Shown: in pieces, positions 40,050 through 52,418 of the stretch | How the letters are laid out: every line of letters starts with the position of its first letter | How positions within the stretch are numbered: the stretch's first letter is position 1 | From: Syntrophobotulus glycolicus DSM 8271 | GTDB lineage: Bacteria; Bacillota; Desulfitobacteriia; Desulfitobacteriales; Syntrophobotulaceae | Direction: 5' to 3' | DNA length: 64,000 nucleotides | NCBI RefSeq assembly: GCF_000190635.1 | Contig: NC_015172.1 | Span: 2,170,001-2,234,000 of the forward strand | Made by a program: the position numbers and the translations under genes | The notes under the pieces: generated by a model | What the model was told of the DNA's origin: nothing | The model's input: only the letters and a program-made list of their open reading frames with translations | The model's database searches: none

Positions 40050-40856
40050 TTATCCCAGGTGATCTTTACCTTTATTATTGTATACGTACAGTCCGGCCAG
40101 AATCGCTGCCCAGCTCAAACCGACAATCGGGGTCATCTTCATGTAACCCGCGGTATAAGACGGCATCGGTTTGGTTGTCACATTCGTATTGAATCTCATC
40201 TGTTCAAACGGCACATCAGAGATATACAGCCACTGGGTTCCCCCTGCTTCTTTTTCTCCAAACACTCTGTCCACATAACCGTTTTCTTTAATTCTCTTTT
40301 TCGCTTCGGCCAAAAGTTCTTCTCTTTCGCCAAAGATTATCGCTCCCGTGGGACATACTGATGCACAAGCTGGAGCTTCGTTATTGGCCACCCTGGTCGG
40401 ACACATCTGACACTTTTTTACACCAGGTATTGCTTTTTTCCATTCATACGTCAGAACGTCGAACGGACAGGCCATCATACAATAGCGGCAGCCGACACAG
40501 AGGCTCTGGTCATAAATAACCGGGCCCTGCGGAAGCTTCTGAAACGCTTTGGAGAAACATGCTGAGGCACAGACCGGTTCCTCACAGTGCATACATTGTG
40601 TTTTTACAAACCTCCAGGCCGGAGATCCGTCCTTTTCTAAGTCATAATGGTTGATTGCCGTCCACTCTTCCGGCCAAAGGCCTTTATTGGGTTCCTTCGC
40701 TCTATCTATCGCTGTCTTGGTCTTTTCCTCTGCCGTCCATTCCAGCTCGTTCCACAACTTACAGGCTACTGAACAGCTCTCACATCCTATGCACTTCGGT
40801 ATATCTACCAATACTCCATAACTCTTGCTGTTTTCTGTTTTTACTTCACTGCTCAT
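40050..40856 (-). CDS. Hydrogenase Fe-S electron-transfer subunit, HybA/FdnH-like (copy 1)
   Basis: A 268-residue ferredoxin-type protein with four [4Fe-4S] motifs: CIGCESCSVAC, CMHCEEPVCASAC, CVGCRYCMMACPF and CQMCP...CASVCP. A C-terminal hydrophobic helix (about residues 240-258, VGLSWAAILAGLYVY) can anchor it. It lacks its own Tat signal, so it may be carried across the membrane together with the Tat-signal-bearing catalytic subunit, as is known for other hydrogenases. The protein is identical to the one at 43988-44794. Confidence 0.9.
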   Translation of the reverse strand: MSSEVKTENSKSYGVLVDIPKCIGCESCSVACKLWNELEWTAEEKTKTAIDRAKEPNKGLWPEEWTAINHYDLEKDGSPAWRFVKTQCMHCEEPVCASACFSKAFQKLPQGPVIYDQSLCVGCRYCMMACPFDVLTYEWKKAIPGVKKCQMCPTRVANNEAPACASVCPTGAIIFGEREELLAEAKKRIKENGYVDRVFGEKEAGGTQWLYISDVPFEQMRFNTNVTTKPMPSYTAGYMKMTPIVGLSWAAILAGLYVYNNKGKDHLG

Positions 40857-40878
40857 TCCTCTTCACCTCCCGGGCATT

Positions 40879-42444
40879 TTAATACTCTGATGGTTTTTTC
40901 GCAGTTAAAAGATGATCCTTCGGTACATAATGAGTATGCAGAAGCAGTTCCGCCTCTTCACTTAACGGCTGTCCTAAAAATTCAGTATAAATCTTTTTAA
41001 TTTCCGGATTTTCATGACTTAAACGAATTCTCATGCTCTTATCGATTTTATAGACAGCTTCGATTCTTTTCTCTCTGACCCTATCCTGAGGAGGCACCGA
41101 GGATCTTGGCTGTCCACCGCCGCTGATACAACCGCCGGGACATGCCATAACCTCAACCAAACGCCAGGGCGCCTGACCGGCATTGATCATATCACAAATT
41201 TTTCTGGCATTGTTTAACCCTTGAGCAACGGCTATTTTCTCCTCACCAATACCGGGGATTTCCAAAGTCGCCTCCTTGATGCCCTGCAAGCCATGGACGG
41301 GCTGCAAATCAAGCACTACAGCCGGAGGCTGCTCACCGGTAGCCAGGAAGTAAGCTGTTCTGACAGCCGCTTCGATAACTCCGCCGCTATTGGCAAAAAT
41401 ATAACCGGCACCGGAAGCTTCACCGACCAGATTGTCAAAATCGCTGTCTTGAAGCTTCGCCAGATCGATCTTCTTCATTTTAAGCATCTCTGAAAATTCT
41501 CTGGTGGTCAGGACCACATCAATATCCCGCATACCGGGTTTGTTGTGATATTTTGCGGCGCTGTTCAATTCTTCACGAGTACATTCATACTTTTTAGCGG
41601 CACATGGCATAACCGCCACTGAGACGATTTTACTGGGATCAATACCCTTCTTTTCGGCGAAATAGGTTTTAATCATGGCCCCCATCATCGCCTGAGGGGA
41701 TTTAGATGTCGAATATTTCGGAATCATTTCCGGATAGTAATATTCCATAAATTTTACCCATGCCGGGCAGCAGGTCGTAAACATTGTATAAGGGGCAGTG
41801 GGATCCTTCAATCTATGGACATGCTCCGAAGCTTCTTCCATAATCGTCAGGTCGGCAGCCCAGTTCGTATCCGCAACATAGTCAAACCCGATTTCTCTCA
41901 AAGCCGCGACCATTTTCCCTTCGACATTGGTTCCGATCGGGAATCCGTAATCATCACCAATCGCAACTCTGATCGCCGGCGCAGTCTGGGCAATCACAAT
42001 TTTATCCGGGTCGGCGAGGGCCTCCCAGACTTTTTGGGTATCATCGACTTCAGTGATGGCCGCAGTCGGGCACCAGTGGGTACATTGTCCGCAATTCACA
42101 CATATTGTTTCATTTTTAATCGGCAGCTTGTAATATCCGTATACCGTCTGAACATTTTGACATACCTCGATACATTGCCCGCAAAGGATACATTTCTGGT
42201 CATCCCGGGTAATTGACGGATTTTTAGGATCAATTGATATTCTTCCTTTAACCTGAGTGGGAAAATCACCCCGATTATCGTACTGAGTCGGCAGCCAGCC
42301 ATCTCCTCCTGCCGCCTTTTCAGGCGTAAGCGGTTTACCGCAGCCGGCAAGTCCTAAAACAGCTCCTGTCACACTCAATCCTCCGGCAAATTTCAAAAAG
42401 GAACGCCTGGATAATGTAATTCCTTTTTTAACTTTTTCTGCCAT
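40879..42444 (-). CDS. [FeFe]-hydrogenase catalytic subunit 1, Tat-exported
   Basis: A 521-residue hydrogenase. The N-terminus has a Tat motif SRRSFLKFAGG followed by a hydrophobic stretch ending LGLAGC, a lipobox-like site. Two [4Fe-4S] motifs follow (CILCGQCIEVCQ; CVNCGQCTHWCP). H-cluster motifs are L1 TTCCPAWVKF, L2 MPCAAKKYE and L3 VMACPGGCISGGGQP; L1 has Thr where TSCCP is usual. The C-terminus holds the small-subunit-like domain (RLSHENPEIKKIYTEFL). The start at 42444 has AAGGAGG. It heads the operon with the Fe-S and membrane subunits. Confidence 0.93.
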   Translation of the reverse strand: MAEKVKKGITLSRRSFLKFAGGLSVTGAVLGLAGCGKPLTPEKAAGGDGWLPTQYDNRGDFPTQVKGRISIDPKNPSITRDDQKCILCGQCIEVCQNVQTVYGYYKLPIKNETICVNCGQCTHWCPTAAITEVDDTQKVWEALADPDKIVIAQTAPAIRVAIGDDYGFPIGTNVEGKMVAALREIGFDYVADTNWAADLTIMEEASEHVHRLKDPTAPYTMFTTCCPAWVKFMEYYYPEMIPKYSTSKSPQAMMGAMIKTYFAEKKGIDPSKIVSVAVMPCAAKKYECTREELNSAAKYHNKPGMRDIDVVLTTREFSEMLKMKKIDLAKLQDSDFDNLVGEASGAGYIFANSGGVIEAAVRTAYFLATGEQPPAVVLDLQPVHGLQGIKEATLEIPGIGEEKIAVAQGLNNARKICDMINAGQAPWRLVEVMACPGGCISGGGQPRSSVPPQDRVREKRIEAVYKIDKSMRIRLSHENPEIKKIYTEFLGQPLSEEAELLLHTHYVPKDHLLTAKKPSEY

Positions 42445-42690
42445 ATCTTTACCTCCTTGCTTTAAGAATTTTTAAAATTTTATTATTTTGTACTTATTAT
42501 AATTTATTTTTATTTTGTTTACCAGATGAATTTATCGTTAATTTATAATTTCTGCTGCCAAAAACAGCAACACATGGAATCCAGCCTTTATTCTCTTCTT
42601 TGTTTCCTTTCTTTACGGTCTATTTTAAGACAAAAAATCTTAAAAACCCGTAACAATTGTTACTTATTCAAAATATTCTCTTCGGGAGCA
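42445..42690. promoter_or_regulatory. Control region of hydrogenase operon 1
   Basis: AT-rich and gene-free. It holds a 23-base inverted repeat, TTTTAAGA-N7-TCTTAAAA (42623-42645), and five bases on, a perfect 14-base palindrome GTAACAATTGTTAC (42650-42663). A TATAAT reading toward the catalytic gene lies in the AT-rich part nearer the gene, with a poor -35. The palindromes are candidate operators for an unknown regulator. Confidence 0.5.
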
Positions 42691-42734
42691 ATAAAAAAAA
42701 GCAACCACCCTAATCCATGAATAGAGCAGCTGCC
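42691..42734 (-). terminator. Intrinsic terminator of hydrogenase operon 2
   Basis: On the minus strand GGCAGCTGCTCTA pairs with TAGGGTGGTTGCT (with several G-T pairs) and is followed by a run of eight T. It separates the two hydrogenase operons. Confidence 0.75.
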
Positions 42735-42779
42735 TTTTCTCAGCTTTTCGCAGATTCATTCTGCTTCTAATTATTTTTC

Positions 42780-43961
42780 TTATTTGTAGAAAGCATATCT
42801 GCCGTCTTCAGTCATAATTCCTACCGTAGGCTCATCACCTCTGTGACTGAAAACACTGAAGTTTTCTGACAGGAACAGGAACGCCAGGCAGCCGATAGAT
42901 ATCAGTCCCAAGCATACGATGACTTCGATCCAGGACGGGAAATACGCGCTGCCATATTGTCCGAAGTATTCGCTTACTCCGGTAAATACCATGTTGAAGC
43001 GGTTTAGAACTACACCTCCGACCGTTAGCAGGCCGAAGATCGTTTGTCCTTTGCTGGTTCCCGCTGATTTACTGAAGGCAATGAAGATCGGGATCAATAC
43101 GCCGGCTCCTAATTCAATTAAGAACATGATGCTGGCATAATCAAACGCGAATACTCTGCCCAGATTTCCCGCTATCGCCAAATCAACGATCTTCATCCCC
43201 AGGTACAGAACCATCAGTGCACCCGCGATCCGGATCAATCCTTTTAAAACGGATGGATCGACATCATAGTTGAACGCTTTTCCACAAAGTCTGATCACTA
43301 CCGCCATCATAGCCGGGCCTACAAACAAGGAGGTCACCAGGAAAAACGGAGCGATTAACTGTGATGACCAGAGGGGATCAAGTTTGCCAAGCATCAGGTA
43401 ATACAGTCCGCCCAGCGAAGATTGGTGCAAAGTCGGCAACGTGACTCCAATAACTAATAATACCGGCAAAGCCGCTTTAAAATATTTATGATAACCTTTA
43501 AAAACCTTCTCTGTCGCCACTTCACAGAATTCTAATACCTGCACTATCGCGTAGATCGTGATACAAACTAAGACTTCGAACAGGACACTCTCATGACCCC
43601 AGGATACGAAGGGTGTCCAGAAGTTGAACCATTGTCCGATATCAACAAACAGCCCAAGGATACCGGTAATATATGCGATCAAAGATATGAGCATCCCTAT
43701 TCTGGCTACCGGGAAAAATTGGTCTCTGCGCAGTATGAATACCATGAATGCCATGGTAAATCCGCTGCCGCCTAAGGCAATTCCTGTGAAAACAACAAAT
43801 TTCCAGAGCCCCCATGTCCATTGGTCGTTTTGGTTGGTTGCAACACCCAGACCCCAGATCAAACGCACCAGAATCATGAGTATCCCTAATACAGCCAAGG
43901 CCGCAAATACAAGCCTCATTGGGGTTATTGTAAAACTCCATCTCTTACGAGCCGTTTCCAT
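42780..43961 (-). CDS. Hydrogenase membrane subunit, NrfD/HybB-like (copy 2)
   Basis: Protein identical to the 393-residue product of 38842-40023; the gene differs by two synonymous bases near its end. It is the third gene of hydrogenase operon 2 and should connect that enzyme to the quinone pool. The stop is followed by a 13-pair terminator that is unlike the one after copy 1. Confidence 0.88.
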   Translation of the reverse strand: METARKRWSFTITPMRLVFAALAVLGILMILVRLIWGLGVATNQNDQWTWGLWKFVVFTGIALGGSGFTMAFMVFILRRDQFFPVARIGMLISLIAYITGILGLFVDIGQWFNFWTPFVSWGHESVLFEVLVCITIYAIVQVLEFCEVATEKVFKGYHKYFKAALPVLLVIGVTLPTLHQSSLGGLYYLMLGKLDPLWSSQLIAPFFLVTSLFVGPAMMAVVIRLCGKAFNYDVDPSVLKGLIRIAGALMVLYLGMKIVDLAIAGNLGRVFAFDYASIMFLIELGAGVLIPIFIAFSKSAGTSKGQTIFGLLTVGGVVLNRFNMVFTGVSEYFGQYGSAYFPSWIEVIVCLGLISIGCLAFLFLSENFSVFSHRGDEPTVGIMTEDGRYAFYK

Positions 43962-43987
43962 TCTTTTCCCTCCTTACGTTCTTATCA

Positions 43988-44794
43988 TTATCCCAGGTGA
44001 TCTTTACCTTTATTATTGTATACGTACAGTCCGGCCAGAATCGCTGCCCAGCTCAAACCGACAATCGGGGTCATCTTCATGTAACCCGCGGTATAAGACG
44101 GCATCGGTTTGGTTGTCACATTCGTATTGAATCTCATCTGTTCAAACGGCACATCAGAGATATACAGCCACTGGGTTCCCCCTGCTTCTTTTTCTCCAAA
44201 CACTCTGTCCACATAACCGTTTTCTTTAATTCTCTTTTTCGCTTCGGCCAAAAGTTCTTCTCTTTCGCCAAAGATTATCGCTCCCGTGGGACATACTGAT
44301 GCACAAGCTGGAGCTTCGTTATTGGCCACCCTGGTCGGACACATCTGACACTTTTTTACACCAGGTATTGCTTTTTTCCATTCATACGTCAGAACGTCGA
44401 ACGGACAGGCCATCATACAATAGCGGCAGCCGACACAGAGGCTCTGGTCATAAATAACCGGGCCCTGCGGAAGCTTCTGAAACGCTTTGGAGAAACATGC
44501 TGAGGCACAGACCGGTTCCTCACAGTGCATACATTGTGTTTTTACAAACCTCCAGGCCGGAGATCCGTCCTTTTCTAAGTCATAATGGTTGATTGCCGTC
44601 CACTCTTCCGGCCAAAGGCCTTTATTGGGTTCCTTCGCTCTATCTATCGCTGTCTTGGTCTTTTCCTCTGCCGTCCATTCCAGCTCGTTCCACAACTTAC
44701 AGGCTACTGAACAGCTCTCACATCCTATGCACTTCGGTATATCTACCAATACTCCATAACTCTTGCTGTTTTCTGTTTTTACTTCACTGCTCAT
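43988..44794 (-). CDS. Hydrogenase Fe-S electron-transfer subunit, HybA/FdnH-like (copy 2)
   Basis: Identical to the 268-residue product of 40050-40856, with the same four [4Fe-4S] motifs and C-terminal helix. It pairs here with a different catalytic subunit (44814-46391). That one unchanged protein serves two divergent hydrogenases implies that the docking surfaces of both catalytic subunits are conserved, or that the copies are held identical by gene conversion. Confidence 0.9.
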   Translation of the reverse strand: MSSEVKTENSKSYGVLVDIPKCIGCESCSVACKLWNELEWTAEEKTKTAIDRAKEPNKGLWPEEWTAINHYDLEKDGSPAWRFVKTQCMHCEEPVCASACFSKAFQKLPQGPVIYDQSLCVGCRYCMMACPFDVLTYEWKKAIPGVKKCQMCPTRVANNEAPACASVCPTGAIIFGEREELLAEAKKRIKENGYVDRVFGEKEAGGTQWLYISDVPFEQMRFNTNVTTKPMPSYTAGYMKMTPIVGLSWAAILAGLYVYNNKGKDHLG

Positions 44795-44813
44795 TCCTCT
44801 TCACCTCCTGAAC

Positions 44814-46391
44814 TTAGGATAATTTACTTCCTGATTTTTGGGGAGTAAACGTATTTGCTCTGGATTCGTATTCTGTATGCAGTATTTCTTCTGCCAAATG
44901 GCTCATTGGTGCATGCAGGTAATCTTTATAGATCTGAGTAATTTCTGTATTTTCATGACTGTTACGCACTTTAGCGTTCTTATCCAGTGTATAGAGAGAA
45001 TTGGAACGCTGGGTACGGATCGTATCACTCGGGGGAGCAGCAGCTCTTGGCTGCCCGCCGCCATATTGGCAGCCGCCCGGACATGCCATGACTTCAATAA
45101 AGGCCCAGGAAGCATTCCCTGCCTTAACCTGATCCATAACTTTACGCGCATTAGCCAAACCTGAGATAACGGCAACCTTCACATCACCGAGACCGGGAAT
45201 ATTGACAGAAGCTTCCTTTACACCAGTCAAGCCTCTAACCGGGGTCAAATTCCACAAAGCCGCAGGCGGAGCCTGTTTCGTGACAAGATAGTACACGGAG
45301 CGGATCGCTGCTTCCATAACTCCGCCGGTTGCACCGAAGATTACACCGGCACCCGTTCCTTCACCCATGAGTTTGTCATACTTTTCATCTTGAAGGGAAG
45401 CAAAATCTATGCCTTTTTTCTTGATCATTTTGGCCAGCTCTTTGGTCGTCAGGACAACATCTACATCCGCCGTAGCTTTGCTATCCTTAAACTCTTTGTC
45501 TGCCGAGGAAAATTCTGAACGCTGAGCCTCGAATTTTTTTGCGGTACAAGGCATGATGGAGACAGAAAAAATCTTTTCCGGATCAATCTTTTGTGTTTTG
45601 GCAAAATAAGTTTTGATCAACGCTCCCGCCATTTGCTGAGGTGATTTTGCTGATGATAAATTTGGAATAAGATCGGGATAAAAATATTCAACAAATTTCA
45701 CCCAACCCGGGCAGCATGATGTGAGCTGAGGAGTAGGTTTATTCAGTTCGCCCGTCACACGTTTTACTAATTCAGTGCCTTCTTCCATGATGGTCAGGTC
45801 GGCTGTGAAGGTTGTGTCAAAAATCGTATCAAATCCTAATTTTCTCAGAGCTGCAACTTGTTTTCCTTCAACATTTGTTCCAATCGGCATCCCAAATTCT
45901 TCACCCAGACCAACTCTTGTTGCGGGCGCGGTTTGAACAACCACAGTGATTTCCGGGTCTTCGATTGCCTGCAGCACCTTATCGATTTCGTCTTTTTCAG
46001 TGATCGCTCCTGATGGACACCAATGTGTACATTGTCCGCAGTTCACACAAACGATCTCATCTTTAATCGGAAGCTCATAGTTTCCATAGACTGTTTGAAC
46101 ATTTTGACATACTTCAATACATTGTCCACAAAGAATACATTTTTGATCATCTCTGACAATCGAAGGATTTGCGGGATCAATAGAAACCCGACCACGAACA
46201 TTGGTTGGCCAGTTTCCTGGTGCATTGTACTGTGACGGCATCCAACCATTTCCGCCGACGGCTTCTTCTGCCGTTAACGCTTTACCGCATCCAGCCAGAT
46301 TCAGCGAGACACCGACCAAACTTGCTCCCCCAACAAGCTTGAGGAAAGAACGTCTGGACAATTTTTTAGCTCGCCCTGCTTTACTTGCCAT
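44814..46391 (-). CDS. [FeFe]-hydrogenase catalytic subunit 2, Tat-exported
   Basis: A 525-residue paralogue of the enzyme at 40879-42444. It has Tat motif SRRSFLKLVGG and lipobox-like LNLAGC, two [4Fe-4S] motifs (CILCGQCIEVCQ; CVNCGQCTHWCP), and H-cluster motifs L1 TSCCPGWVKF (canonical), L2 MPCTAKKFE and L3 VMACPGGCQYGGGQP. The C-terminal small-subunit-like domain reads RNSHENTEITQIYKDYL. The middle of the protein differs clearly from subunit 1. AAGGAGG precedes the ATG. Upstream lies a gene-free region of about 1 kb with several palindromes. Confidence 0.94.
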   Translation of the reverse strand: MASKAGRAKKLSRRSFLKLVGGASLVGVSLNLAGCGKALTAEEAVGGNGWMPSQYNAPGNWPTNVRGRVSIDPANPSIVRDDQKCILCGQCIEVCQNVQTVYGNYELPIKDEIVCVNCGQCTHWCPSGAITEKDEIDKVLQAIEDPEITVVVQTAPATRVGLGEEFGMPIGTNVEGKQVAALRKLGFDTIFDTTFTADLTIMEEGTELVKRVTGELNKPTPQLTSCCPGWVKFVEYFYPDLIPNLSSAKSPQQMAGALIKTYFAKTQKIDPEKIFSVSIMPCTAKKFEAQRSEFSSADKEFKDSKATADVDVVLTTKELAKMIKKKGIDFASLQDEKYDKLMGEGTGAGVIFGATGGVMEAAIRSVYYLVTKQAPPAALWNLTPVRGLTGVKEASVNIPGLGDVKVAVISGLANARKVMDQVKAGNASWAFIEVMACPGGCQYGGGQPRAAAPPSDTIRTQRSNSLYTLDKNAKVRNSHENTEITQIYKDYLHAPMSHLAEEILHTEYESRANTFTPQKSGSKLS

Positions 46392-47452: not shown

Positions 47453-48718
47453 TTAGAACTTATTCTTGTATTGGTTAGCCATTCTTTTCTTGAGATTTTC
47501 AGCAATACTAGCTGGATCGATTGGATTTCTTGCGATTCCTGAATCAATAGCAGCTTGAGCAGTAGCCGCAGCGACTGCAGGAGCAACTTCAGGATTAAAT
47601 GAGCTGGGAATAATATAATTCGCATTCAGTTCTTCCGGTTTTACACAATCAGCAATTGCTTTAGCAGCAGCAACTTTCATGGCGTCATTGATATCGGTCG
47701 CTCTGACATCAATCGCACCGCGGAAAATACCGGGGAATGCCAATACATTATTTACCTGATTTTGAACATCTGAACGTCCAGTAGCAATAACAGCCGCACC
47801 AGCGTCAAGAGCTCTTTGGATCGGCCAAATTTCAGGGATTGGATTAGCTTGAGCAAATATAATTGGATTAGGAGCCATGCTCTTAATCATTTCTTCATCA
47901 AGCATTTCCGGAGCAGAAATACCGATAAATACATCTGCGCCTTTAATTGCTTCTTTAAGATCGCCTTTAACCAAGTTGACATTGGTTCTTTCAGCAATTT
48001 CGTCTTTATATTTGTTCATCCCTTCGGCACGACCTTTGTAGATAGCACCTTTCGTATCACACATGATTACATTTTTCAGACCCATATGCATGAGCAGCTT
48101 AATAATGGCGATACCGGCAGCTCCCGCACCATTAGCAACAACTTTGACATCTTCAATTTTCTTGCCGACAACTTTCAACGCATTGAAAAGTCCGGCAAGG
48201 GTTACAACTGCAGTTCCATGTTGGTCATCATGGAAGATCGCGCCTTTAAACTTACCGTTAGCTTTTAATGTATCTTCAATAACAAAGCACTCCGGAGCTT
48301 TGATATCTTCGAGATTCACACCGCCAAAGCTTGGAGCGATTAATTCAACAAGTTCAACAATTTTAGCTGTATCAGTGGTGTCAACACAGATCGGATAAGC
48401 ATCTACATCACCGAAAGCTTTGAAGAGAAGCGCTTTACCTTCCATAACAGGCATAGCGGCAGCTGCACCAAGATTACCGAGACCAAGAATAGCTGTACCG
48501 TTGGATACGACACACACCGCATTGGCATGGTTCGTATATACATCAAGGTTATCTAAATCAGCGGCAATTTCTTTTACCGGTTCAGCAACACCAGGTGAAT
48601 AAGCAAGAGTAAGATCATCTTTGTCTTTTGCAGGACAGGTAACTCTCACTTCGATTTTACCAGGACCAATTTTGTGAAATTCAAGTGCTTCGTCCCGCAG
48701 ATTTTTAATACGTGACAT
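47453..48718 (-). CDS. Malic enzyme (oxaloacetate-decarboxylating, NAD(P)-dependent)
   Basis: Oxidatively decarboxylates malate to pyruvate and CO2. The short bacterial form, 421 residues: N-terminal GKIEVRVTCPAKDKDDLTLA and AYSPGVAEPVKEIA, metal/substrate region FHDDQHGTAVVTLAG, Rossmann loop VVANGAGAAGIAIIKLL and FAQANPIPEIWP (FALANP in most relatives). It is the last gene of the operon that makes malate from malyl-CoA, so it would deliver pyruvate and reducing equivalents. Codons are more AT-ending than in the ilv genes, perhaps reflecting high expression. NAD versus NADP preference cannot be read reliably. Confidence 0.93.
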   Translation of the reverse strand: MSRIKNLRDEALEFHKIGPGKIEVRVTCPAKDKDDLTLAYSPGVAEPVKEIAADLDNLDVYTNHANAVCVVSNGTAILGLGNLGAAAAMPVMEGKALLFKAFGDVDAYPICVDTTDTAKIVELVELIAPSFGGVNLEDIKAPECFVIEDTLKANGKFKGAIFHDDQHGTAVVTLAGLFNALKVVGKKIEDVKVVANGAGAAGIAIIKLLMHMGLKNVIMCDTKGAIYKGRAEGMNKYKDEIAERTNVNLVKGDLKEAIKGADVFIGISAPEMLDEEMIKSMAPNPIIFAQANPIPEIWPIQRALDAGAAVIATGRSDVQNQVNNVLAFPGIFRGAIDVRATDINDAMKVAAAKAIADCVKPEELNANYIIPSSFNPEVAPAVAAATAQAAIDSGIARNPIDPASIAENLKKRMANQYKNKF

Positions 48719-48853: not shown

Positions 48854-48916
48854 AGGCCCCCTCAACAGAGGTGGCCTTGGATACTCTTCAAGCCATCTCT
48901 GCGAGATGGCTTGAAG
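48854..48916. repeat. Two hairpins between aldolase and malic enzyme genes
   Basis: AGGCCCCCTC/GAGGTGGCCT (48854-48877, nine of ten pairs) and a perfect 14-pair stem CTTCAAGCCATCTC/GAGATGGCTTGAAG with a 3-base loop (48886-48916). No T-run follows either on the gene strand, so they look like RNA-processing or stabilising stems within the operon rather than terminators. Confidence 0.7.
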
Positions 48917-48924
48917 TATTGAAT

Positions 48925-49824
48925 TTAGCCCTTTTTCTGAGCTTCTTTTGCCTGAATTTCATTGTAGGCGGAAAGAATGTCGCGAGCATTATCATAAACA
49001 GGTGTATCAACCATTTTACCATTGAGGGTAACGGCTGCTTTACCTTTGGCGATTCCTTCTTCTTCAAACACTTTAACAACTGCTTTTGCCCACTCAACAT
49101 CAGCAGGATCGGGAGCATACAAACGGTTTGAAGGTTCAACCTGGCTAGGATGAATGATCATACGGCCTTCATAACCCATTTGTCTGCCGGTTGCAACATT
49201 CGCTTCAAACGCAGGAACATTCTGGAAAGAAACGAATGGAGCATCAACAGCGACGATACCAGCTGTGCGGCAAGCAACACCAACTTTGAAACGTCCATAT
49301 AACTGTTCCTCTGCTGCGTCTGTGATTTTAACTCTCATATCACGGCAGTAGTCAACAGCACCAAAGATCGCTGCAACATTGCGTTTGCTGGCTAAACAGC
49401 ATTCTTCGGCATTAGCAATACCTTTAGCTGTTTCAAGAAGCATGGAAATTTTCACTGTACCAACGGGAATGCCGCGGCGTTGTTCCAATTCTTCGAGTTT
49501 CCATTCCAAACGTTTAACGTCATCAGCAGAACCGGTTTTGGCAAGTGTAACACCGTCAAGACCAGGAATTACAACTGCTTCAAGGTCGTCATTTGTTAAA
49601 AGAGTTTCCCAGTTGTTGATACGAACCCATACTTGAGCACCGTTTACTGCTAAAGTTCCGCCTTTGATGGTATCTGCAATCATCACACGGGTTGCTTCTT
49701 TTTCAGCTGGTGGAATAGAATCTTCCAGATCCAGTGTGTAAACATCTGCAGGAATGCTTGGAGCTTTTTCGATAAATCTAGGATTGTTTCCAGGAACATA
49801 GAAAATAGATCTCAAAACAGCCAT
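48925..49824 (-). CDS. Malyl-CoA lyase-type aldolase (HpcH/HpaI, citrate lyase beta family)
   Basis: A 299-residue TIM-barrel lyase. Family motifs: LRSIFYVPGNNPRFIEKA, TLDLEDSIPPAEK, VWVRIN, ISMLLETAKGIANAEE and FGAVDYCRDMR. Relatives cleave or form malyl-CoA, citramalyl-CoA or citryl-ACP. No citrate lyase alpha or gamma gene is nearby, while malate-CoA ligase-like genes and malic enzyme are, so malyl-CoA formation from glyoxylate and acetyl-CoA is the best reading. The ATG at 49824 has AGGAGG upstream. Confidence 0.85.
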   Translation of the reverse strand: MAVLRSIFYVPGNNPRFIEKAPSIPADVYTLDLEDSIPPAEKEATRVMIADTIKGGTLAVNGAQVWVRINNWETLLTNDDLEAVVIPGLDGVTLAKTGSADDVKRLEWKLEELEQRRGIPVGTVKISMLLETAKGIANAEECCLASKRNVAAIFGAVDYCRDMRVKITDAAEEQLYGRFKVGVACRTAGIVAVDAPFVSFQNVPAFEANVATGRQMGYEGRMIIHPSQVEPSNRLYAPDPADVEWAKAVVKVFEEEGIAKGKAAVTLNGKMVDTPVYDNARDILSAYNEIQAKEAQKKG

Positions 49825-49918: not shown

Positions 49919-50812
49919 TTATTTAAGCTTTTGTTTCAGGATTTTAGGAATATCGGTTGGTGTGTCTGCCACAAAACCGCCTGCAGCTGTAACCGCTTCC
50001 ATTTTGCTTTTTGCAGAACCACGACCACGTTCAACGATGTTAGAAGCATGTGAAAAACGCTGGCCTTCCGGAGCCCAGGCACCGGCAACATAAATAACAA
50101 AAGGCTTTGTAAATTTGCCTGCGGCAATTACTTCAGCACATTCTTCTTCTTGCGAACCACCGATTTCAGCATATACGGCAACACCTTCGGTCTGCGGATC
50201 GGCCTCAAATAATGGGAGCAGGTCTGCCATGGAAGTACCAAGAACCGGTTCTGTACCGGTATGCACAACTGTGCTGACTCCAAAACCGCCTTCTCTCAAT
50301 ACCCAAGGAATGGTTCCGGACTGACCGCCACTGCGGGAGAACACACCAATGTTTCCACTCTGGAAGAACTTGTTGGCCCAGTCAACATTACCGCCAAGCC
50401 AGCCAACTACAGCTTCTCCAGGAGTAATGATCCCGATAGAACCAGGTCCGACCAGACGGGCGCCTTTTTGTTTGACATAAGCAACCATTTCCATGATGTC
50501 ATGAACAGGGGTGCCTTCTACGCAAGGAATAACGTTTTTAACACCGGCGTCAACTGCTTCGAAAACAGCGGTTTTCAGCCCTGAACCAGGAACGAAAACT
50601 ACGCTGAAGTCAATCTCGCCCTGATCTCTAACAATTTCTTTTACCGTGTTATAAACAGGAATTCCATGAACTTCTTCACCTTTTTTACCAGGGCTGGTAC
50701 CACCGATTACTTTTGTTCCGTAATCTTTCATGTACTTTGTTCTAACTGAACCTTCGCGGCCAGTAATACCCTGAATTATTACTTTAGTATTCTTATTGAT
50801 TAAAATGCCCAT
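49919..50812 (-). CDS. ADP-forming CoA ligase alpha subunit (malate-CoA ligase / succinyl-CoA synthetase type)
   Basis: A 297-residue SucD/MtkB-like subunit. The CoA-binding Rossmann domain begins KVIIQGITGREGSVRTKYM and GGTSPGKKGEEVHGIPVY. The phospho-histidine is in EGQRFSHASNI, where succinyl-CoA synthetase has RMGHAGAI; the His is kept while the surroundings differ. The neighbouring malyl-CoA lyase-type gene suggests malate as substrate, working in the direction malyl-CoA to malate plus ATP in a glyoxylate fermenter. A succinate enzyme cannot be excluded from sequence alone. Confidence 0.87.
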   Translation of the reverse strand: MGILINKNTKVIIQGITGREGSVRTKYMKDYGTKVIGGTSPGKKGEEVHGIPVYNTVKEIVRDQGEIDFSVVFVPGSGLKTAVFEAVDAGVKNVIPCVEGTPVHDIMEMVAYVKQKGARLVGPGSIGIITPGEAVVGWLGGNVDWANKFFQSGNIGVFSRSGGQSGTIPWVLREGGFGVSTVVHTGTEPVLGTSMADLLPLFEADPQTEGVAVYAEIGGSQEEECAEVIAAGKFTKPFVIYVAGAWAPEGQRFSHASNIVERGRGSAKSKMEAVTAAGGFVADTPTDIPKILKQKLK

Positions 50813-50844: not shown

Positions 50845-51135
50845 TCAGGCTAAACCTCTTTTAGCGAGATATTCAGGAAGTCCGTCAACCTCAATATCGA
50901 TGCTGATTGCTTTATTGCCGTCAAACTGACAGGCAATTTCGCAAGCGAGACATTCTGTGCCGAGGCGAAGCACTTCACTTTCGGTCAAATGCGCAACAGA
51001 AGGTTTGCCGTCTTTAATCACAAGTATTCCTCTGGCAAACTTTTTGCATGCTTCCGCACAAGCTTTTGATTGACAAGCATCACATTTGCTTGCGTCAACA
51101 CTAACGGTAATACTTTTTTCTTTAATTTCAAGCAT
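50845..51135 (-). CDS. Small Fe-S protein between the two CoA-ligase genes
   Basis: A 96-residue protein with Cys clusters CDACQSKACAEAC (CxxCx4Cx3C, about residues 18-30) and ECLACEIACQF (CxxCx3C, about 63-70). The first could hold one [4Fe-4S] cluster; the second has three Cys and could hold a cluster with another ligand, or a [3Fe-4S]. It is not a standard 2[4Fe-4S] ferredoxin, where the fourth Cys is usually followed by Pro. Its place between ligase beta (8-base gap) and alpha (32-base gap) suggests co-production and perhaps a complex. I do not know a characterised homologue in this setting. Role unknown. Confidence 0.85.
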   Translation of the reverse strand: MLEIKEKSITVSVDASKCDACQSKACAEACKKFARGILVIKDGKPSVAHLTESEVLRLGTECLACEIACQFDGNKAISIDIEVDGLPEYLAKRGLA

Positions 51136-51143
51136 GTTTACAC

Positions 51144-52418
51144 CTACTTTCCCTGAGCTTCTTTTTCAGCTCTGTAGTCTTTGCTTAGAGCTAAAAGTCT
51201 TTCGCCAATAAATTTCGTATCGGTAACATGCTCTTTCCCGTAAACCTCTACTCTCTTGCCGGGGCCGTCCGGAGTGATCAGATCAGCTAAGCCTTTACGC
51301 AGGATTTCAAGAGATTCGTCTTCTCTGTTTCCGCACAACAGGAGAACACAAGGAAGACCAGGTTTCTTGGGAAGCTCTTCTCTCAATACTTTAACCATTG
51401 CATTGGCATGATGCCATTGCTCCTGGTTAGCCATCATGAATCCACCAAGTACATAGCCGTCAATGTTTGGCTGAGAAAGAACACATTTTGCAACCCTGTA
51501 AATTTTAGAACCAACAGGATTACCGCTGGTATCAGCAAAGTTAGCAGGTTTGAGACCTACTTGGTTTAATGCGTCTAAGCCCATCATGGCAGATCCGCCA
51601 CCGATTGGATGATAACCAATATATCCAGGGCTTACTTCATCATAACCCATATTCATCAAGAAACCGGTACCTCTGGCATCAGTTTCTTCAATACTCCAGC
51701 CGATAATATCAAGCTCAGTTGGTTCACCGGGAAGGTCACGGGCAATTTTAATGCCGAACTCCGGATGACGGCCAACAGCACTGTTGTCAATTTCCATTTT
51801 GCAGTCAGCACAAATCAGATCACCTTTACCGGTCATGATAAAAGGATTAATCTCTAATGTCTGGCAATCATATTTTTTAAAGGTCTGACTAAGCCTAGTG
51901 AAAAATGACGCGAATTTAGTGAGATCCTTAGCCTGTATTCCTGCTTTTACCGCAAGATCAATCGCATCATACGTCTGCAGACCTTTGATCGGATCAACAT
52001 TCACTTTGATGAGCAATTCTTCCGGAACACTTTCAATGTCCATACCGCCTTCGGTACTGAACATGACCATTGGTGATCTTGCTTCTCTGGAGTTGTTAAT
52101 CACAAAGGAGCAATAAAATTCTTTTTTAATATCTAATTTTTCTTCGATCAGGACTTGTCTGATTGGAAGTCCTTTAATTGTTTTAGCAAGAATTTCTGCT
52201 GCTGCTGCTTCAGCTTCTTCAGGTGTATTGACTAATTTAACAATTCCTGCTTTACCACGTCCGCCCGCTTGAATCTGGCCCTTAACCGCAACTGGACCAC
52301 CTATCCATTCAGCTACTTCTTTAGCTTCCTGAGGAGTTGATGCCGGACGTCCTTTTGGTACTGGCATGCCTGCTTTTGCAAGCCATGACTTACCTTGATA
52401 CTCTAAAAATCTGGCCAT
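51144..52418 (-). CDS. ADP-forming CoA ligase beta subunit (malate-CoA ligase / succinyl-CoA synthetase type)
   Basis: A 424-residue ATP-grasp subunit (SucC/MtkA-like). N-terminal ARFLEYQGKSWLAKAGMPVP, then VKGQIQAGGRGKAGIVKLV, EINPFIM with following LICADCKMEIDNSA, and the C-terminal flavodoxin-like part with GYIGYHPIGGGSAMMGLDAL. It is somewhat longer than the usual ~390. First gene of a five-gene operon. AAGGG lies seven bases before the ATG. Substrate inference as for the alpha subunit. Confidence 0.87.
   Translation of the reverse strand: MARFLEYQGKSWLAKAGMPVPKGRPASTPQEAKEVAEWIGGPVAVKGQIQAGGRGKAGIVKLVNTPEEAEAAAAEILAKTIKGLPIRQVLIEEKLDIKKEFYCSFVINNSREARSPMVMFSTEGGMDIESVPEELLIKVNVDPIKGLQTYDAIDLAVKAGIQAKDLTKFASFFTRLSQTFKKYDCQTLEINPFIMTGKGDLICADCKMEIDNSAVGRHPEFGIKIARDLPGEPTELDIIGWSIEETDARGTGFLMNMGYDEVSPGYIGYHPIGGGSAMMGLDALNQVGLKPANFADTSGNPVGSKIYRVAKCVLSQPNIDGYVLGGFMMANQEQWHHANAMVKVLREELPKKPGLPCVLLLCGNREDESLEILRKGLADLITPDGPGKRVEVYGKEHVTDTKFIGERLLALSKDYRAEKEAQGK

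Follow-up and report, generated by a model that had tools for sequence, protein, structure and literature searches.

The genome of Syntrophobotulus glycolicus FlGlyR, a glyoxylate fermenter, is a single contig of 3,406,739 bases, and the window analysed here is a stretch of 64,000 nucleotides of it (NC_015172.1, positions 2,170,001 to 2,234,000). Coordinates are positions in this window unless genome positions are named, and the genes and motifs discussed lie on its minus strand. Five genes follow one another on that strand: a SucC-like ATP-grasp ligase beta subunit of 424 aa (51144..52418), a gene for a small Fe-S protein (50845..51135), a SucD-like ligase alpha subunit of 297 aa (49919..50812), an HpcH/HpaI (CitE-like) lyase that is a probable malyl-CoA lyase (48925..49824), and a malic enzyme (47453..48718). 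The gaps between them are, in order, 8, 32, 94 and 206 bases. The small gene starts with ATG and encodes a ferredoxin-fold protein of 96 aa, proposed here to be a gamma subunit of the ligase. The ORF, its two cysteine motifs (CxxCx4Cx3C and CxxCx3C) and its tight spacing from the two ligase genes had been pointed out in an earlier sequence-only reading of this DNA and are confirmed. A Shine-Dalgarno-like AGGTG (51141..51145), seen by direct reading of the sequence, overlaps the stop codon of the beta gene. A 14-bp perfect inverted repeat (48886-48916) lies between the lyase and malic enzyme genes; it has no T run on the operon strand and is a possible processing or attenuation site. The region 40341-46391, on the same strand, holds two similar tandem units, each with an [FeFe]-hydrogenase-type subunit and a multi-cluster Fe-S protein. 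The hydrogenase-type copy at 44814-46391 has a Tat-like signal, RRSFLKLVGG, and Fer4_7 matches recur in the two units (genome positions 2210341-2210796 / 2212058-2212240 and 2214279-2214734 / 2216005-2216142).

The ORF is a real gene, with homologues at 50-78% identity throughout the order and also in Deltaproteobacteria-type MAGs. The first cysteine motif, C18-x2-C21-x4-C26-x3-C30 (51046..51084), is near-invariant in the first set of homologues and invariant in a curated alignment, and the second, C62-x2-C65-x3-C69 (50929..50952), is invariant in both. All seven cysteines were retained in 67 of the 68 first-set sequences, with isolated rows that are incomplete or divergent as the exceptions, and in 50 of 50 rows of the curated alignment. 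An AlphaFold model made with 50 relatives had a pLDDT of 94, and structural comparison of this model returned ferredoxin domains, with residues 132-227 of CpI hydrogenase as the top match (Z 7.4) and individual Z scores all below 8. The protein fell below the Pfam Fer4 cut-off (best Fer4_7, 21.5 vs 27), and its profile gave no match at E<=1 among PDB sequences. The alignment and the model also place a strongly conserved C-terminal helix, GLxEYxxKR (50857..50883), past the ferredoxin core, and this helix could be a docking element. The protein thus resembles bacterial 2[4Fe-4S] ferredoxins in fold and cysteine pairs, but differs from them in having one cysteine fewer, in the added C-terminal helix and in being tied to a ligase locus.

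The cysteine count varies within the family. Basal members (L091/L093, L092/L094 and L141) have eight cysteines, in the pattern CxxCx4Cx3C plus CxxCx2Cx3C. In the main clade, which includes the S. glycolicus protein, the first cysteine of motif 2 is replaced by glycine (Gly59, 50959..50961), which leaves seven, and L142, which branches beside the main clade, has aspartate at that position. Read from these alignments, the main clade has lost one cysteine of the canonical eight. By the usual ligand rule for ferredoxins, a second cluster in these proteins would then have only three cysteine ligands, so that it would be either a [3Fe-4S] cluster or a [4Fe-4S] cluster with an open iron. In the predicted arrangement, cluster one would be a [4Fe-4S] cluster held by C18, C21, C26 and C69, while C62, C65 and C30 would hold cluster two.

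The gene hardly ever occurs apart from a ligase. A single-sequence search found it in 40 of 61 relatives, and these 40 genomes are precisely those that encode an alpha subunit at least 80% identical. Scanning 84,980 species genomes yielded 58 Fe-S loci, including those of Desulfosporosinus, Moorella, Desulfitobacterium-type MAGs and Syntrophus/Deltaproteobacteria MAGs. Profile searches detected the gene in 18 of 398 genomes sampled from the same phylum. In the Syntrophaceae-type phylum they gave strong matches in 22 of 395 genomes, and three further genomes gave weak matches only (L128-L130, E about 1e-7). These three loci have no ligase and a different second cysteine motif, and were excluded as another ferredoxin family. 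Searches of viral contigs and plasmids found no relatives of the protein. When 98 distinct Fe-S sequences from Firmicutes and Syntrophus-type bacteria were examined, 95 had the beta gene directly upstream and the alpha gene directly downstream; two of the remaining three lie at contig ends, and the third (L121) has its alpha gene about 420 bp on. The sequence-only reading had suggested that the protein is made with the ligase, and had held that homologues lying mostly away from CoA ligases would speak against a link. The opposite distribution was found, which supports the suggestion. Additionally, none of 10 inspected paralogous SucCD-type loci in relatives (alpha about 36-44% identical) had an Fe-S homologue, and the stretches examined at L032, L056 and L058 contain the ligase trio with neither lyase nor malic enzyme.

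Spacing between the beta and Fe-S genes is mostly -4 to 13 nt across the loci, in keeping with the S. glycolicus value. In most Desulfitobacterium and Desulfosporosinus loci beta has a TAG stop, 9 nt after which the Fe-S gene follows in frame, and in five loci (L027, L045, L047, L049 and L053) an extra 121-277 bp is present where the usual spacing is 9 nt. The 8-nt spacing in S. glycolicus is out of frame. Mirror-tree correlations were 0.88 for FeS-beta and 0.84 for FeS-alpha, values that are expected of any linked genes and have no evidential weight.

Beta and the Fe-S protein are joined in two genomes. In genome G617 (L141) a single ORF of 522 aa comprises beta (residues 8-413) followed by an eight-cysteine Fe-S domain (433-520), and alpha starts 3 bases after it. 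The same fused frame, 98% identical, is present in genome G849, so an assembly error is unlikely, although the two genomes are very close relatives and the fusion may therefore be a single event. An apparent FeS-alpha fusion (L127/L143) was rejected because it was a run of N that had been read through. That the gene pairs strictly and exclusively with the ligase, is fused to beta in two genomes and at some loci forms a trio with the ligase genes alone suggests a third ligase subunit. We consider it likely that the protein serves a distinct branch of SucCD-type ADP-forming ligases as their dedicated gamma subunit. An extra ligase subunit was among the roles offered by the sequence-only reading, and it is the one that the linkage and the natural fusions favor. 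The constant middle position, the tight spacing and the ribosome-binding site overlapping the beta stop would also suit a helper in assembly or maturation, one that must be co-translated with the ligase and is absent from the final enzyme. Such a helper would be kept permanently attached by fusion to beta, and this explanation is very improbable.

Another role raised by the sequence-only reading was to carry electrons for malic enzyme or for the oxidation of pyruvate. In a broader form, the protein would be a free ferredoxin-like carrier that is co-transcribed with the ligase by chance and serves pyruvate:ferredoxin oxidoreductase, malic enzyme or the oxidation of glycolate. Its position between beta and alpha is constant in any pathway context, however, including loci where the sequence examined has no lyase or malic enzyme, and a free carrier is difficult to reconcile with fusion to beta in two genomes. 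The ferredoxin fold agrees with a carrier, as do pathway neighbours such as malic enzyme and, in the Syntrophaceae-type L065, glycolate-oxidase-like genes, but the protein has seven cysteines rather than eight. Typical ferredoxins are strongly acidic, whereas the median pI of these Fe-S proteins is 6.3. The S. glycolicus genome also already has 53 Fer4_7 matches, several of them in frames of 65-118 aa. The carrier role is thus disfavored and appears improbable.

The ligase subunits themselves support the existence of a separate branch to which a gamma subunit could belong. Both have Pfam matches above cut-off (ATP-grasp for beta, CoA-binding/Ligase_CoA for alpha), with PDB matches to 3ufx and 2yv2. 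His255 of alpha (50048..50050) is conserved and aligns with the active-site phosphohistidine of SucD, and its catalytic role is presumably that established in succinyl-CoA synthetase (SCS) enzymology. The enzyme is therefore like the succinyl-CoA synthetase SucCD in its beta ATP-grasp and alpha CoA-binding folds and its phosphohistidine motif. It is unlike SucCD in the extra Fe-S gene between the subunits, in altered substrate-site loops and in scores under the NCBIfam equivalog cut-offs for both subunits (beta 244 vs 370, alpha 272 vs 336). A DTSGNP loop in beta (51516..51533), in the succinate/citrate site region, is shared by almost all Fe-S-linked ligases (L142 has DTSGDP), whereas Fe-S-less relatives have GGG or GGN. 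A second beta loop, NQEQWH (51411..51428), is characteristic of the Fe-S-linked ligases, in which it is of the [N/S]QEQ[W/F]H type with a looser variant in L093. Ordinary SucC has GGG and GGI at these two positions. In a midpoint-rooted tree of concatenated beta and alpha, Fe-S-linked and Fe-S-less ligases were split with 100% support. The closest solved structure to the C-terminal half of beta is citryl-CoA synthetase 6hxq, and the fused relative L141 passes Pfam Citrate_bind, which are likenesses to citryl-CoA synthetase and ATP-citrate lyase. When the beta-FeS-alpha read-through of L027 was modelled with AlphaFold as a stand-in for the complex, the parts folded but alpha and beta were left unassembled, and comparison with ATP-citrate lyase gave a TM of about 0.36 at 27 A rmsd.

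Glyoxylate metabolism via malyl-CoA has been reported in S. glycolicus (PMC8092247) and in Moorella strains (PMC6313629). A search of the S. glycolicus genome returned only one SucD-type alpha (E<=1e-20), and given the reported route, the lyase, ligase and malic enzyme fit a pathway in which acetyl-CoA and glyoxylate form malyl-CoA, which yields malate and ATP and then pyruvate. The S. glycolicus ligase is therefore probably a malate-CoA ligase, judging from the lyase, the malic enzyme and the reported physiology. It would share its reaction and an adjoining malyl-CoA lyase with MtkAB, the malate-CoA ligase of serine-cycle methylotrophs, but its beta subunit scores far below the cut-off of the MtkA model NF010647 (176 vs 604). 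A full beta-FeS-alpha-CitE-like lyase-malic enzyme operon is present in 'Candidatus Dichloromethanomonas elyunquensis' RM (L021:4717-9692), with lyase and malic enzyme 76% and 82% identical to those of S. glycolicus. In a Syntrophaceae MAG (L065:8137-12229), genes that read as glycolate-oxidase-like follow the ligase trio and lyase, and this gene order suggests a putative glycolate-to-malyl-CoA operon.

More distant members have other neighbours. L094 adjoins a methylaspartate ammonia-lyase, fumarase-type hydratase subunits and a citryl-CoA-lyase-like protein, and L141 has a hydratase and a lyase of the same types. L093 is next to a pair that reads as 3-isopropylmalate-dehydratase-like and an HMG-CoA-lyase-like protein, and L142 is next to a CitE-like lyase. 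These neighbours suggest that 2-hydroxydicarboxylates may be activated and then cleaved. Such contexts bear on the proposal that the open iron of a three-cysteine cluster contacts the 2-hydroxycarboxylate or CoA and aids substrate binding, as in aconitase. Consistent with this proposal, the contexts point to hydroxyacid substrates, the substrate-site loops of beta are clade-specific, and the seven-cysteine pattern is common to 121 scored copies (not deduplicated), with aspartate at the lost position in L142. However, the eight-cysteine relatives L094 and L141 occur in comparable contexts, and L095 and L104 have ligases of a separate type, with a citryl-CoA-synthetase-like GGNPPERK loop, beside CitE-like lyases and no Fe-S gene, from which it follows that hydroxyacid-type chemistry itself does not need one. 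Substrate contact by the cluster is accordingly judged unlikely.

Under the gamma subunit model, catalysis would remain with alpha, through its phosphohistidine, and with beta, through its ATP-grasp fold. Gamma would form a physical complex with them, docking near the C-terminus of beta, the fusion site in the two genomes. The branch would act on 2-hydroxydicarboxylates, and the S. glycolicus enzyme would convert malyl-CoA, ADP and Pi to malate, CoA and ATP, which would be the ATP-forming step of glyoxylate fermentation. It is predicted that the CoA ligase here very probably carries an Fe-S cluster. Because the ligase reaction is redox-neutral, the clusters should be structural or regulatory unless they touch the substrate. 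That they are a structural part of the ligase has a little under an even chance of being correct, and a redox or oxygen switch that gates the ligase is a tentative possibility; a redox switch was also among the roles offered by the sequence-only reading. It is rather doubtful that ATP formation by the ligase is under cellular redox control via the Fe-S subunit or that an open-site cluster touches the substrate, either of which would put an enzyme of substrate-level phosphorylation directly under Fe-S control.

To our knowledge, textbooks describe ligases of the succinyl-CoA-synthetase type as alphabeta enzymes that lack metal clusters, and we know of no Fe-S subunit described for MtkAB, citryl-CoA synthetase or ATP-citrate lyase. 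Benzylsuccinate synthase and 4-hydroxyphenylacetate decarboxylase each have a small cluster protein on a catalytic subunit of another kind, but these enzyme classes are unrelated to the ligase and are a parallel only in how they work. No description of an Fe-S subunit for such a ligase was found in the open-access literature, though work in subscription journals could exist. The pathway and the ligase fold were already known, and the Fe-S subunit is new as far as the open-access literature shows. If the model is correct, the annotation would need correcting wherever the small gene is labelled a stand-alone ferredoxin, and expression of these ligases without that gene, or in air, may fail. An obligate Fe-S subunit would give a central class of energy-conserving enzymes an additional cofactor, and would suggest that ATP formation is under direct redox control in anaerobes that live at the energetic limit.
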